Source: a virus. From it: a stretch of 30,217 bases of DNA. Below are positions 15,615-25,497 of this stretch, piece by piece (position 1 is the first letter of the stretch; each line of letters starts with the position of its first letter). The position numbers and the translations under genes are program-made. The stretch is from the IMG/VR virus record IMGVR_UViG_3300048930_000041, positions 1 through 30,217 of that record, one strand, 5' to 3'. The notes under the pieces were generated by a model. The model worked only from the letters and a program-made list of their open reading frames with translations. It was not told where the DNA came from and ran no database searches.

Positions 15615-16112
15615 TCAAATAGTGCAACCAGCATGCAATTTTCTTTTCTCCAGCAAGTAGGCTGCATGCGCCGCCTCTGGGCTATCAAAAACGCCGATAT
15701 GCCTTTGGCGCGATCCAGGCGGCTTGATATGCGCATACCACTTCTTGCCATGTTTCGAAACGCCTAGATAGCCAGACTTGTTGTGACACATGGCGCCTGT
15801 TTGATTCTGCGAATTTGTGAACGCATCAACGTCGCGCAGGTTTTCCCACGTGTTGTCATCTCGAATACCGTTCTTGTGATCAACAAGCCCGGACGGCCAA
15901 TTGCCAGTCACGTGCAGCCAGATGAGTCTGGCGGCTCGATAGCGCCTTTGATCAACCATCACTGAAAGGTAGCCACTGCCGGAAGGCGTTCCTGCAACGT
16001 CCCCAGCCCGCACGCCTCCAAATTTTGGGGAACGGCGCCACGTGAGTAAGCCAGTCTCTTTGTTGTAGTCAAATAATTGGCGCAGACGATCCGCGGTGAT
16101 ATCGTGTTTCAT
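15615..16112 (-). CDS. HNH homing endonuclease with AP2 DNA-binding domain
   Basis: This 165-residue protein starts at the ATG at 16112, 14 bases after the scaffold stop, with a GAGGG overlapping that stop as Shine-Dalgarno. The N-terminal half is an HNH_3-type nuclease (YRAARLIWLHVTGNWP, then LVDHKNGIRDDNTWENLRDV, with His79 and Asn87/Asn91 as likely active-site residues, and TNSQNQ). Residues about 113-160 form an AP2 domain (SGYLGVSKHGKKWYAHI, IGVFDSPEAAHAAY). This architecture is typical of freestanding selfish endonucleases in phages. The DNA is visibly richer in A and T than its neighbours, which suggests recent arrival between scaffold and capsid genes. Confidence 0.9.
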   Translation of the reverse strand: MKHDITADRLRQLFDYNKETGLLTWRRSPKFGGVRAGDVAGTPSGSGYLSVMVDQRRYRAARLIWLHVTGNWPSGLVDHKNGIRDDNTWENLRDVDAFTNSQNQTGAMCHNKSGYLGVSKHGKKWYAHIKPPGSRQRHIGVFDSPEAAHAAYLLEKRKLHAGCTI

Positions 16113-16126
16113 GTTCTTGCCAACCC

Positions 16127-17200
16127 TCAGCCAGGCAATCCAGCCGATGCCCACGCATGCTCGACGGATTCCTCTGCCGTCACCGGCTTGGAGCCGATCT
16201 GCCGGGTTCCGCTTGCCACATACCCCGGGCGCAGTGGTTGCGGTGCTGGTGGCGCCGCGGGCGGCTGGGGGGTGTAGGCGTCGTACATCATCAGGATCGC
16301 CGACTGCCACTGGTTGGGCTGGTACGTGGTCACGAACTGCTGCATCACGCCGGGCTCGCGCAGTTTGCTCTGGATGAACGCCAGCTTTTCCGCATGGCCC
16401 GGGGTGGCTGCACGCTTGGCCAGCGCCTCGTCCATCTGGCTCGCCGCAGACTCGATGGTCTTCTGGAATTGCGTCTGCTCCTGATTGGCGCGGTTCTGCG
16501 CATCCAGGCGTGCCTGCTGGTCGCGCAGCTTGGCGATCTCCAGCGCCCGCTCGCGGGTGATCGACATGTTCTCCACATCGGCCGCAAGGTCTGCGTGCTT
16601 GGACAGCAGATCAATGCCCGGCGCATCCACACCCAGACGAGTTGCCAGGTCCGCCCGCAGGCCGTCGAGTTGCTTGAGCGCCGTCTGCAGGTCGTTCGGG
16701 TCCGCTGACTTGAACAGGCGTCCCATCTCGAGCATGCCGGCGAATTCATCCTGCGCCAGACCGGACTGCTGCACCATCTCGCGCACGCTGGCCAGGGCCG
16801 TCTCTGCCTCGGTCGCTCGCTTTTCCAGATCGGGGACCTGCTTTGCCCGCTCGGCCAACTGCGCCCATCGGCCTTTTGCCTTCTCGCTCGCTCCCTCGGG
16901 TGGGGTCAGGTCGTCATCCTCGGCCTTAGGCTTGACCTCTGCCGGCTTGTCGACAGGCTTGTCCTGCGCCTCGGGCTTGGAGTCGTCCTCGGGCTTGCCG
17001 ATGCCGTCCAGCAGCGCGGTGATCTTGGCCGTGTTCTCGTCGCCGTGGCCGGTTTCGACCTTGACGACTTCGGGCTCTGGCGCCGCGGGTGGATCTTGCG
17101 TGACCTCGGGTGCAGCGCTTTGCGCTGGCGCCGCTCCGGTGTCGGTGCCGCCGGTGTCGCCGGGTTCTGGTGCGAGTAGTCTGGGTCGTGGGTATTTCAT
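16127..17200 (-). CDS. Capsid scaffolding-type protein
   Basis: This 357-residue protein overlaps the portal stop by 4 bases (ATGA at 17200-17197). Residues 1-110 are Pro/Glu/Asp-rich and disordered. Residues about 110-275 are strongly charged helix, probably coiled coil (QLAERAKQVPDLEKRATEAE, ALEIAKLRDQQARLDAQNRA). The end is Pro-rich (PQPPAAPPAPQPLRPG). Acidic disorder, long coiled coil and position between portal and capsid are the hallmarks of an assembly scaffold. It ends just before the homing endonuclease gene. Confidence 0.75.
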   Translation of the reverse strand: MKYPRPRLLAPEPGDTGGTDTGAAPAQSAAPEVTQDPPAAPEPEVVKVETGHGDENTAKITALLDGIGKPEDDSKPEAQDKPVDKPAEVKPKAEDDDLTPPEGASEKAKGRWAQLAERAKQVPDLEKRATEAETALASVREMVQQSGLAQDEFAGMLEMGRLFKSADPNDLQTALKQLDGLRADLATRLGVDAPGIDLLSKHADLAADVENMSITRERALEIAKLRDQQARLDAQNRANQEQTQFQKTIESAASQMDEALAKRAATPGHAEKLAFIQSKLREPGVMQQFVTTYQPNQWQSAILMMYDAYTPQPPAAPPAPQPLRPGYVASGTRQIGSKPVTAEESVEHAWASAGLPG

Positions 17201-22444: not shown

Positions 22445-22569
22445 TGGCGCCTCGCTTGCTCGAATGCCCTCTGGATGTGCATCCAATGCTGGCCGGCGGA
22501 TCGGTTGATCAGCACGCGGATGCGGGCCTGGGCCTGGGCTTGCATGGCGTCGAGTTGGGCGGGGGTCAT
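22441..22569 (-). CDS. Very small helical protein, 42 residues
   Basis: ATG at 22569 overlaps the ninG stop (ATGA) and its own stop overlaps the next start (ATGA). The product is almost one helix (MTPAQLDAMQAQAQARIRVL) followed by INRSAGQHWMHIQRAFEQAR. The double 4-base coupling supports a real gene. No family is recognised. Confidence 0.6.
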   Translation of the reverse strand: MTPAQLDAMQAQAQARIRVLINRSAGQHWMHIQRAFEQARRQ

Positions 22570-23141
22570 CGGGTTTTCTCCAGCTCCTTGCGCTTTGCCG
22601 CGTACCGTGCGCGGATCTCGATCAGTTCGCCGCGGGTCCACTTCCTGACTCGGTTGTCCGCTTCCAGGGCCTCGACGGCGGCCAGGCCGATGCGATTGAT
22701 CAGGCCAATGCGGTAGTCCACCGCCCGCCCGGCGCCGTGCCGGTTGCACACGACAAGCTGCCGGTGGCAGTTGTCCTCATCGAATCGCAAGTGGCCAGCA
22801 CTCCCGGTTGATCGGTAGTGGCCGGCATCCCAGCGGCTCCCGGTGATCAAGTCCCGATCGTTGGCCGTCCTGCCGCAGCAGATGCAAGGCTTCCCCGCGT
22901 CCCGGGCCCGGATGTAGGCATTGAATTCACGCTGGGCCAATCGGATCAGTTGGGGAATGGTCTGGATGGCATCGCGCCTGGCGCGGGTTTTCGCGCGATC
23001 CTGGGCTTTTCTGGCCTTGGTGGATGCCGTGGCCTCGGCCTTGGCGCATCGCAGGCCACACACAGCCTGCAGCGGTCGCACGGGGGTGAATGCCTTGCCG
23101 CAGCGGCGGCAGTCTTTGGGGGCTACTGGCTGGAGCATCAC
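22566..23141 (-). CDS. ninG: NinG (Rap) recombination nuclease
   Basis: This 191-residue protein matches the lambda NinG/Rap layout. An N-terminal zinc region (CRRCGKAFTP, VCGLRCAK) and a Lys/Arg-rich helix are followed by LAQREFNAYIRARDAGKPCI with CICCGR. The nuclease-like core is WDAGHYRSTGSAGHLRFDED-N-CHRQLVVCNRH, and YRIGLINRIG comes after it. NinG is known to cut branched recombination intermediates in the Red pathway. Start may be GTG at 23141 (4-base overlap with the methyltransferase stop) or ATG at 23138. Confidence 0.9.
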   Translation of the reverse strand: MMLQPVAPKDCRRCGKAFTPVRPLQAVCGLRCAKAEATASTKARKAQDRAKTRARRDAIQTIPQLIRLAQREFNAYIRARDAGKPCICCGRTANDRDLITGSRWDAGHYRSTGSAGHLRFDEDNCHRQLVVCNRHGAGRAVDYRIGLINRIGLAAVEALEADNRVRKWTRGELIEIRARYAAKRKELEKTR

Positions 23142-25027
23142 GCCGCCTCACGTTTCTCGATTCGCAGCGCATCAACGGCGGCGATCCTCTCCCCGATCCA
23201 GCGCACGACCGGCACCGCCCAACTGTTGCCCAGCGCCTTGTACCGTGGGCCGTCGGCCGCTGGCTTGCCGCGGTGCGGGATGGCGGTGTAGTCCGCCTCT
23301 ACGTCAATCTCAAAGGAGAAAGAGTCGGGCAGTGTTTCGCTTGGAATGCACCCACTTATGGCAGCCAACACAGAGCAAAGCAAGGTTGCTGCTGGTGAGT
23401 CGGTGCTCGGGACAAGACGCCCAAGGTCGGATGTGGTGAACCTCGCCAGCGGCGCATCGTTCTTTGCATCGCTGGCAGATGCCGCGCTCTCGGCGCCAGA
23501 CTTCGGAACACTTTGAGCGCCACTCAGCCCCGGAATAGAAAGCCTGATGGGCAGATGTAACTCCACCTTTCCAGAACGGACTTCCAGGCCCAGACATTGC
23601 GACCGCTTTGCAACGGCGCCCGCAATACTTGCGATCTGCGTAGGCGGGAGAAACAGATTTGATGCGCCCGCACTGCTGGCAGACCAAATCGACCTTCCGT
23701 GACTGCGCAATTCCAGAGGCTCGGCCTCTGAGCCCAGACGCGCACGCAGGGCTGCAAGCGGCTCGCGGCCTGCCTGGCTTGTGCTCAAAGCCTGCGCTGC
23801 AGAACCCGCAGATGGCATGAACCTTTCTGCGTCGGCACGCGAGGCATTGCTCGGCCACCTGAGACATGACAGCGCCACATCCACACTGCCGCTTTGATGG
23901 TCGATGCATGCGTTTATCCTAATCAGTTCGTGAATTGAGGGGAATCCATGCAGGCGCTCGCACTCGCGCGGCGTCAGGAGCCGGACCTGCATGCCGGCCA
24001 TGACAGCCTGATGCCCGCCGCCGTTCGTGTGGCTGTTGGCATGTCCCATGGCGCGCTGCGTGCTGGCGATCTCGCCTATGCCGAACCCGTTCCGGCCTGA
24101 TGCCTTGCAGTCAAAGGCAATGGCCGGCACCAGCGGCGTGCCACGTCCCGTCCCGTCCTCGCTGGCGTCGAAGCCTTCGCCGCGCAGGGAGTGGGTGACG
24201 ACCCACTTATTGCCGTCGATGTCGTCGTTCGACTGTCCTCCGTTGCGCGCACCCCGTGCCGTCAGGCTGCCCGCGATATACGGTGCCTCATGGTTGCAGT
24301 TCAGCGTCGGCGCCATGTCGGCACCCATGTCGGCACCCGCCTGACCAGTGGCTACGCACAGAAGTTCCGCCGGCTGTGGGATTAATCCGCTGCCTCCATC
24401 CTGTTCTTGGATTCCGCCACGCTTCGCAGCGCTTGCTCTAATGCTGCCGGCAACGCTTTTCCCCGTTTCTCGGCGCGGCGCAGGATGCCCTTGCAGGCTG
24501 TGGCGCTCAAAAAGTACCGCTGCGGCACTGCGCCAGTCTCCAAGACATCCGACAACGAACACACGGCGCCGACGCTGGGCCACTCCGAAGTACTGAGCGT
24601 CGAGAACCCGGTAGGCGAACCCATACCCGAGGACGCCCAGGAGCCCGAGGAAGGCGCCAAAGTCCCGTCCTCCGTTGCTGGACAAGACGCCGGGGACGTT
24701 CTCCCATACCAGCCACCGGGGCCGATACTTTGCAGCAATGGCACCAAAGGTAAGCATGAGGTTGCCACGCGGGTCATCCAGTCCTTTTCGGAGTCCTGCG
24801 ACACTGAAAGACTGACAGGGGGTTCCTCCGCAAAGAAGGTCAATTGGTTCATTGGGCCAGTCCTTGAACTTGGTCATGTCGCCGCGGTTCGGCGTGTCTG
24901 GGTAGTGGTGGGCGAGCACGCTGCAGGGAAACGGCTCGATCTCGGAGAATGCGGCCGCCTTCCAGCCCAGCGGGTTCCAGGCCACGCTGGCGGCTTCGAT
25001 GCCGGAACAGACTGAAAGGAATTTCAC
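23138..25027 (-). CDS. C5 DNA cytosine methyltransferase, interrupted by HNH insertion
   Basis: The GTG start at 25027 overlaps the ninB stop (GTGA). Motifs appear in order: I (SVCSGIEAA, 5-13), IV (TPCQS, catalytic Cys71), VI (WENVPGV, Glu109), VIII (QRRRR, 151-155), a target-recognition region, IX (RECERLHGFP, 354-363) and X (ALGNS, GNS at 600-602). It transfers methyl groups from S-adenosylmethionine to cytosine C5. Between motifs IX and X, residues 364-578 are foreign: they are the other-frame translation of an inserted HNH gene. The frame stays open, so a 629-residue product is possible, but whether it is active is doubtful. Without the insert the protein would have 414 residues, a normal phage size. 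Confidence 0.85.
   Translation of the reverse strand: MKFLSVCSGIEAASVAWNPLGWKAAAFSEIEPFPCSVLAHHYPDTPNRGDMTKFKDWPNEPIDLLCGGTPCQSFSVAGLRKGLDDPRGNLMLTFGAIAAKYRPRWLVWENVPGVLSSNGGRDFGAFLGLLGVLGYGFAYRVLDAQYFGVAQRRRRVFVVGCLGDWRSAAAVLFERHSLQGHPAPRRETGKSVAGSIRASAAKRGGIQEQDGGSGLIPQPAELLCVATGQAGADMGADMAPTLNCNHEAPYIAGSLTARGARNGGQSNDDIDGNKWVVTHSLRGEGFDASEDGTGRGTPLVPAIAFDCKASGRNGFGIGEIASTQRAMGHANSHTNGGGHQAVMAGMQVRLLTPRECERLHGFPSIHELIRINACIDHQSGSVDVALSCLRWPSNASRADAERFMPSAGSAAQALSTSQAGREPLAALRARLGSEAEPLELRSHGRSIWSASSAGASNLFLPPTQIASIAGAVAKRSQCLGLEVRSGKVELHLPIRLSIPGLSGAQSVPKSGAESAASASDAKNDAPLARFTTSDLGRLVPSTDSPAATLLCSVLAAISGCIPSETLPDSFSFEIDVEADYTAIPHRGKPAADGPRYKALGNSWAVPVVRWIGERIAAVDALRIEKREAA
23310..23909 (-). 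CDS. HNH homing endonuclease with multiple zinc-finger Cys pairs
   Basis: This 199-residue protein starts at the ATG at 23909, with AGGA (23920-23917) 7 bases upstream. It lies in a different frame of the methyltransferase gene. Four Cys-pair zinc sites occur before the nuclease (C9/C11 with C22/C25, C34/C37 with C52/C56, C77/C80 with C96/C100). Then comes GPGSPFWKGG, a linker found in homing HNH enzymes. The HNH core is CQRC (145-148), EVHHIRPWASCPEHR (His158/His159), SSNLALLCVGCHKWVH (Asn175, His184, His188). It would cut intron-less or insert-less alleles and spread by repair. It is translated from its own ribosome-binding site within the host gene mRNA. Confidence 0.85.
   Translation of the reverse strand: MHRPSKRQCGCGAVMSQVAEQCLACRRRKVHAICGFCSAGFEHKPGRPRAACSPACASGLRGRASGIAQSRKVDLVCQQCGRIKSVSPAYADRKYCGRRCKAVAMSGPGSPFWKGGVTSAHQAFYSGAEWRSKCSEVWRRERGICQRCKERCAAGEVHHIRPWASCPEHRLTSSNLALLCVGCHKWVHSKRNTARLFLL
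23917..23920 (-). promoter_or_regulatory. Ribosome-binding site of the nested HNH gene
   Basis: AGGA lies 7 bases before the HNH ATG, inside the inserted segment. It supports independent initiation on the methyltransferase mRNA and decides the start. Confidence 0.6.
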
Positions 25028-25497
25028 GCTGCCTCCACAATCTCGCCCGTCTCGGCGTCCACCGTCTGCCCAATCTGCCGCGGCGCTTCGGGGAATGCGA
25101 TGTCGTTCTCCGATCCCCACGCGAAGATGAACTCGATCAGCTCCGCGCATTCCTTGCGGGTCAACTGCGATGTCCTGCGGAACACGATGTCCACCCCATG
25201 CCCGTCCAGGGCCGGCAGCAGTTCGACCTGTTCACCCCGGGCCCGGCACCACGCAGCCACCAGCAGGCGTTTCCACGTCTCGATGTCCCGGCGCTTGCCG
25301 GCCCATTCCTGGGTTTTGCTGATGTGGCCCAGCATGGCGTGCAACAGGCGGTTCTCCGCATCGCTGCGCTTTTCCTCGCGCACATCGAGCGTCAGCGGCC
25401 GGCCACCGGCCAGCAAGTGGCCCTTGATCGCCGGCCAGACGACATGCGCCAGGTCGTTGTATGCTTGCTGGGGGTTGTGGCAGCGGATGTGGATCAT
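25024..25497 (-). CDS. ninB: NinB (Orf) recombination mediator
   Basis: This 157-residue protein matches the lambda NinB family. After the N-terminal strand-helix region comes EEKRSDAENRLLHAMLGHIS, then KTQEWAGKRRDIETWKRLLV, LPALDGHGVDIVFRRTSQLT and KECAELIEFIFAWGSENDI. These features are conserved across the family. It binds single-stranded DNA and SSB and substitutes for RecFOR in phage recombination. The C-terminus has an extra acidic tail (DAETGEIVEAA). ATG at 25497 overlaps the previous stop (ATGA) and the end overlaps the methyltransferase start (GTGA). Confidence 0.9.
   Translation of the reverse strand: MIHIRCHNPQQAYNDLAHVVWPAIKGHLLAGGRPLTLDVREEKRSDAENRLLHAMLGHISKTQEWAGKRRDIETWKRLLVAAWCRARGEQVELLPALDGHGVDIVFRRTSQLTRKECAELIEFIFAWGSENDIAFPEAPRQIGQTVDAETGEIVEAA

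Follow-up and report, generated by a model that had tools for sequence, protein, structure and literature searches.

Inteins and homing group I introns home into conserved motifs, occur as filled and empty alleles and yield trees that are incongruent with those of their host genes, and HNH genes are common in both group I and group II introns. Homing endonuclease genes may also be free-standing, as is reportedly the case for MobE in nrdA of phage Aeh1, which splits its host into two genes. The closest described arrangement to the one considered here is the ShiLan domain of Mycobacterium phage ShiLan gp65 in which, according to two reports, an out-of-frame HNH gene lies within a methylase gene whose own frame is open, with no intron or intein, a disjunct spread and a predicted outlying loop (PMC9957025; PMC11855218). 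A hidden out-of-frame HNH gene and an open host frame are likewise described for the methylases of Pacc40 (gp60; PMC11855218) and Applejack (PMC12613952), phage examples that resemble the present one.

This article examines an HNH gene hidden within a C5-cytosine DNA methyltransferase gene of a virus, found in the 30,217-base IMG/VR record IMGVR_UViG_3300048930_000041 (hereafter the window). It is of the ShiLan kind, in that an HNH gene with zinc-finger-like motifs lies in another frame of a phage methylase gene that has no host-frame stop and no known intron or intein, and in that its distribution is disjunct and its insert tree unlike that of its hosts. Comparison with the gp65 sequence shows that the relation of the two frames is identical, and the Cys4 region with its W[KR]GG linker, the only part that aligns well, is shared (hhalign 95.2%, E = 2.5e-8). 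The original prediction that the locus may represent a novel means of carrying a selfish gene has been overtaken, since such a means had already been published in 2025 with the ShiLan domain (PMC11855218). Homology to the ShiLan domain itself is nevertheless not indicated, as host family, insertion site and HNH family all differ: gp65 carries the VTDPPYG motif of amino-methyltransferases and does not resemble the C5 enzyme in sequence (lowest blastp E 0.43), its insertion site is unlike that between motifs IX and X, and its HNH belongs to Pfam HNH_3 (PF13392) rather than HNH (PF01844). The ShiLan domain is also limited, in these reports, to GC-rich mycobacteriophages, whereas the C5 family spans 31-62% GC. 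No earlier report of a hidden HNH gene in C5-methyltransferases was found in the open-licence literature, preprints aside, and in the searched text of PMC11855218 the words 'cytosine', 'statistical', 'codon usage' and 'purifying' are absent. The kind is therefore already published; what is new is the methyltransferase class, the site, the HNH family and the statistical evidence for maintenance of the frame.

The Methyltransferase Gene and Its Insert

The host gene (Table 1) is identified as a C5-methyltransferase by Pfam PF00145 DNA_methylase (E = 9.6e-47), the only Pfam name in its product, together with the PCQ, ENV and QxRxR motifs and motif X, and it also matches PHROG 116, DNA methyltransferase (E = 6.4e-85). 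It stands in what resembles the nin region of lambda (22566-25497, minus strand), where Pfam places NinB (25024-25497), the methyltransferase and NinG (22566-23141) in succession.

Host sequence breaks off at the GFP that ends a segment we take to be motif IX (last codon CCC, 23941-23939 on the minus strand) and resumes at 23293 with DYTAIPHRG, ahead of a segment that is presumably motif X. The 645 bases between GFP and DYT, the stop-free methyltransferase frame across them and the resulting 629-residue open reading frame (ORF), all set out in the original prediction, are read directly from the sequence. Empty alleles mostly have GFPDDYT at the site when uninterrupted relatives are aligned, so that by homology the net insertion in the window is closer to 642 than to 645 bases. 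Only 45 bases of the insert lie outside the HNH ORF. In the host frame the right-hand flank is the end of a strand-like stretch that reads SFxVxVET..GYT in relatives.

Table 1. Features of the methyltransferase gene and its insert (window coordinates).
Feature	Coordinates	Strand	Remarks
C5-cytosine DNA methyltransferase gene	23138..25027	-	GTG start at 25027, stop 23138; 629 aa with insert read through
Segment taken to be motif IX, VRLLTPRECERLHGFP	23939..23986	-	Final host sequence before insert
Insert	23294..23938	-	645 bases, open in host frame (host residues 364-578); same-site inserts in relatives
Left flank of insert, outside HNH ORF	23910..23938	-	In host frame, alternating hydrophobic stretch common to relatives; predicted strand 365-376
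TAG stop in HNH frame	23919..23921	-	Three codons before HNH ATG; overlaps AGGA
AGGA upstream of HNH start	23917..23920	-	Weak, not conserved
HNH endonuclease ORF	23310..23909	-	199 aa, stop included in coordinates; two N-terminal Cys4 (zinc-finger-like) motifs and HNH domain
Right flank of insert, 3' of HNH stop	23294..23309	-	In host frame, end of strand-like stretch; predicted strand 569-578
Segment taken to be motif X, YKALGNS	23222..23242	-	Read in sequence

The Hidden HNH Gene

A 199-residue HNH ORF does indeed occupy another frame within the insert, as is evident from direct reading and from its match to Pfam PF01844 (HNH, E = 4.8e-8). The Cys, His and Asn positions of its product are invariant in 19 of 19 aligned relatives, which points to intact HNH and metal-binding residues, and among PDB entries its profile matches the phage HNH 5h0m and group II maturases, the best being 6me0_C (E = 1.6e-10). 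Each host codon consists of positions 2 and 3 of an HNH codon and position 1 of the next, so that the third position of an HNH codon serves as the second position of a host codon. The HNH frame is under purifying selection, with dN/dS of about 0.08-0.31 in the seven pairs that have differences.

Because of the TAG stop upstream of it, the HNH ATG is the sole start available among ATG, GTG and TTG. The AGGA site that had been assigned to this start is present, but the pairing of its stretch with the 16S tail does not exceed background (p = 0.28 against 200 random places), and no conserved ribosome-binding site precedes the start among 19 relatives tested; the start is uncertain in three relatives (L150, L155 and L143). 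Expression as a frameshift fusion of the N-terminal part of the methyltransferase to the HNH protein was considered and rejected for the window, as the same TAG leaves no space for it.

Relatives at the Same Site and Their Mobility

Relatives were gathered by searches with both the HNH and the methyltransferase sequences. HNH matches above 180 bits comprise 33 entries, in which the window appears twice (as W and L001), and removal of same-contig and near-identical copies leaves 20 distinct sequences including the window. In all 20 the HNH gene occupies the same position in a C5-methyltransferase, which is between motifs IX and X, and stands in the same frame relation (host = HNH +1), with the GC content of the HNH region ranging from 0.31 to 0.62. 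Both sides of the insertion site are visible in 19 of them; L153, which begins inside the insert, displays the right side only and was excluded as partial from two alignments (A6 and A7), while L148 was excluded from the host tree. None of the 33 entries has a stop in frame +1, whereas each of the 72 weaker entries has at least one. A motif search saw no methyltransferase motif near these weaker homologues, although the same search overlooked the motif in five genuine members.

The spread of the element is patchy. It is present in 4 of the best 80 of 599 methyltransferase loci, two of the four being near-identical, and in bacterial genomes it was found in 1 of 399 and 1 of 398, on both occasions in the same Massilia sp. 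TS11 genome (L123); a scan of genome contigs matched 44 stretches, of which one was confirmed. Bacterial chromosomes were accordingly set aside as the home of the element, Massilia sp. TS11 being its only occurrence among the bacterial genomes scanned. Among isolated phages the window HNH matches 10 records, none covered to 80%, and the HNH of a second family member, L088, matches 37, of which five are covered to 80%. The two of those five that were examined are both annotated as separate genes, and these have as many host-frame-like stops as expected (19 versus 19.05, and 5 versus 5.6). One plasmid record matches, at 28.6% identity.

Two lines of evidence bear on movement. In the HNH tree the window groups with L087 and L123 (support 99/99), whereas in the host tree it groups with L030 (96/96) and L087 groups with L142 (100/99); the HNH and methyltransferase trees disagree, and the element has by this token moved between methyltransferases. 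Further, filled L030 and empty L033 differ by a 588-base net insertion or absence in near-identical virus DNA: the left side matches at 99.6% identity over 1391 bases, and the right side at 97.1% over 927 bases, with no difference in the first 234. Together, the filled/empty pair and the tree conflict provide indirect evidence for homing, in which an empty allele would be cut and the element copied in. The earlier picture of a naked endonuclease gene that happened to enter a coding sequence and kept its frame open does not survive the finding of 20 distinct same-site sequences; the insert is, to judge from these relatives, an old, mobile, dual-coding element that arrived with the host frame already open.

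Maintenance of the Host Frame

The number of host-frame stops expected by chance was obtained by redrawing each HNH codon from among its synonyms at the frequencies found in the surrounding ORFs. For the window alone 3.7 stops are expected and none is seen (P of zero stops 0.011 by simulation and 0.026 by the Poisson distribution), which is suggestive only. The case of ShiLan is similar, with 2.6 expected and none seen, and is not conclusive alone; an open second frame is cheap in GC-rich mycobacteriophages, and whether it is really maintained had thus been unsettled. In the present family the 20 sequences have no host-frame stop where 65.3 are expected, whereas in a control of 59 more distant HNH homologues (the distinct plus-strand sequences among the 72 weaker entries) 330 stops are found where 246.6 are expected, and none of the 59 has zero. 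Stops are also lacking in the six members with a full-length HNH and an HNH-region GC of 0.40 or less, in which the third frame contains 18-31. Taken singly, AT-rich full-length members have simulated probabilities of 0.0003 to 0.03, with the exception of L154 (0.09); for L146 none of 4000 simulations was free of stops. Since the 20 sequences are related, their stop counts are not 20 independent trials and no overall probability is given.

Within the bounds of sequence comparison, the stop counts of the family are decisive for a host frame held open by selection, as had been proposed from the window, and it is the AT-rich members that show the frame to be truly maintained. A competing explanation is that the open frame is a by-product of GC-rich coding and the methyltransferase was merely broken by the inserted gene. 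The window figures above would leave some room for this, as would certain GC-rich members that singly have a probability of zero stops of 0.10-0.21; it fails on the 20 relatives, AT-rich ones included, when set against the 59 controls, and on the purifying selection that hosts show on either side of the insertion event. In this form it appears already refuted by those counts, and we accord it next to no probability.

Constraint on Host-Frame Residues

Residues encoded in the host frame of the insert are more alike between divergent relatives than synonymous shuffles would make them (z = 15.1 by BLOSUM62 and 13.1 by hydropathy, for 74 divergent pairs among 14 representatives of the 20), the excess being greatest at both ends of the insert. 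The unused +2 frame, used as a control, is also above the null (z = 6.3 and 2.6, respectively), so that part of the excess reflects shared descent. A further pairwise test of 154 pairs gives a mean z of 2.3, with 58% above 2 and 6% below 0. In close pairs the naive dN/dS of the insert's host frame is near or above 1 (0.18/0.12 for L018/L019), while that of the HNH is about 0.3 or lower, and the host-frame residues of the insert are therefore constrained only loosely. Selection, as it can be read from these comparisons, guards the HNH sequence most; it keeps the host frame open and shapes it loosely. The original prediction had counted against itself the discovery of numerous relatives in which the methyltransferase frame conserves a homologous domain. 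Such relatives have now been found, yet they change the reading rather than refute it, because conservation extends to the HNH frame, where it is stronger.

The same residue constraint could be taken to mean that the insert now serves the methyltransferase as a useful domain, for example in DNA contact, with the HNH kept for a joint function and not as a parasite, and strands and two helices do recur in two low-confidence models built from overlapping alignments. A domain of this sort sits poorly with the patchy spread described above, with an almost identical empty allele (L033 versus L030) and with host-frame dN/dS near 1 in close pairs, and this explanation is considered unlikely.

Introns, Inteins and Translational Bypassing

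No intron is detectable with the Rfam families: in the window and in 23150-24100 no intron family reaches its gathering score, and only two chance-level matches are returned at E up to 10. An unrecognised self-splicing intron carrying the HNH ORF would give the same mobility pattern, would be a usual home for an HNH gene and would accord with the group II maturase (6me0_C) that is the best PDB match of the HNH profile. Besides the Rfam result, there are only 45 bases of insert outside the ORF in which it could reside, and splicing does not require an open host frame; such an intron is therefore rated improbable, a little more so than the useful domain.

An aberrant intein, by which the host-frame insert would excise itself from the protein, would explain why the insert is in-frame, open and located at a conserved motif with an intein-like pattern of mobility. 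Inteins need a nucleophile at both junctions and a terminal Asn (PMC11855218), but across the members C, S or T is not present at both junctions and the terminal Asn is lacking. No Hint domain is present either, Pfam naming only DNA_methylase in the host product, and an intein is thus very improbable.

In phage T4, ribosomes hop over a gap in gene 60, which offers a precedent, linked to a homing endonuclease, for translational bypassing of the insert. A hop would tolerate stops in the skipped segment, whereas here the frame is kept free of them and the residues it encodes are under constraint, and hardly any likelihood is left to this possibility.

The element does share with inteins and group I introns the homing into conserved motifs, the empty and filled alleles and the incongruent trees, a comparison also drawn in PMC11855218; it differs in that no RNA or protein splicing is detectable and two overlapping frames are found instead. 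With free-standing homing endonucleases such as MobE it has in common an HNH homing gene in a conserved gene without a splicing element of its own, but the nrdA host is said to be split into two genes and here the host frame runs on.

Six short PHROG families (16528, 17284, 23296, 26324, 13621 and 31585) match one side of the motif IX/X junction only, and possibly represent split or interrupted methyltransferases elsewhere.

State of the Host Enzyme and of the Predicted Loop

All 15 filled hosts examined keep the PCQ, ENV, QxRxR and GN motifs, and dN/dS over the first ~200 codons is about 0.18-0.33 in six pairs of such hosts, in keeping with purifying selection. A dead enzyme, one of the outcomes contemplated at the outset, is accordingly unlikely, but not every filled host is intact, as the L088 methyltransferase changes reading frame at about 2690 to 2860, between two hidden nucleases, through either a true break or a sequencing error. 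The 629-residue protein with an overprinted loop stands as the most likely host product, the frame being open and kept, with neither intron nor intein detectable.

In an AlphaFold model of this product residues 1-170 mostly have pLDDT above 85 and residues 580-629 have 86-96. The insert is mostly below 50, except for strands at 365-376 (about 65-75) and 569-578 (about 62-71), and host residues 180-347 are below 50 too; modelled alone with 19 sequences, the insert has a mean pLDDT of 49. A fold search of the fusion model returns C5-methyltransferases (best 2uz4_A, 166 columns) for the N-terminal part only and is uninformative on the loop. The predicted structure supports an outlying loop, and not a fold.

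The second hidden nuclease of L088 (L088:2164-2688, plus strand) lies in the same methyltransferase gene, is unrelated to the first and stands in a different frame relation to the host. It has no host-frame stop where 15.0 are expected, and 15 in the other frame where 8.4 are expected; among its relatives in phages the annotation is endonuclease VII or HNH, and no Pfam family is named for it. The hidden HNH genes of the window and of ShiLan, which are of different HNH families, both have host = HNH +1, and the second L088 nuclease has +2.

Proposed Mechanism and Significance

The reading that we favour, and hold to be probable, is that of a mobile, homing-type HNH gene that lives inside C5-methyltransferase genes without a splicing device, its dual-coding insert being translated through as a loop. 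Translation of the HNH protein would begin at its own start codon inside the methyltransferase mRNA. The protein would cut alleles that lack the insert, in the conserved region of motif IX, and the element would be copied into the cut allele during repair. Ribosomes on the host gene would read on through the insert, so that the methyltransferase would carry a loop of some 200 residues; this loop would project from a surface turn of the enzyme core by way of two strands and would not abolish activity. The open second frame would thereby do the job that splicing does in introns and inteins.

A wider proposition, to which we would give even chances, is that homing endonuclease genes have, besides introns and inteins, a third mode of residence in conserved genes that dispenses with splicing. 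The second frame of such a dual-coding element would have evolved to encode a passenger domain, stalked and in frame, which allows the host enzyme to go on functioning. Such elements would be spread over phage C5-methyltransferases of 31 to 62% GC and would have arisen more than once, the present family, ShiLan and the second L088 nuclease representing different HNH families, sites and even frame relations, and protein-coding sequence would be created by overprinting. Should the present case be confirmed, it would follow that a homing gene can occupy the gene of a conserved enzyme with no need of splicing, that annotation counts too few of the overlapping genes in phages, and that some 200 residues of new protein sequence have been overprinted on an older gene. 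The filled and empty alleles of L030 and L033 and the copy in Massilia sp. TS11 provide material for direct tests.

Other Features of the Window

An Rfam match to Betaproteobacteria-1 sRNA (RF02932; 25900-26021, minus strand; 89.5 bits, E = 1.4e-15) hints at a betaproteobacterial host for the virus. The window also contains a free-standing HNH_3 endonuclease ORF (15615-16310, minus strand; Pfam E = 4.4e-11), which is of the same Pfam family as the hidden HNH of ShiLan and the 5' part of which overlaps an ORF at 16127-17200.
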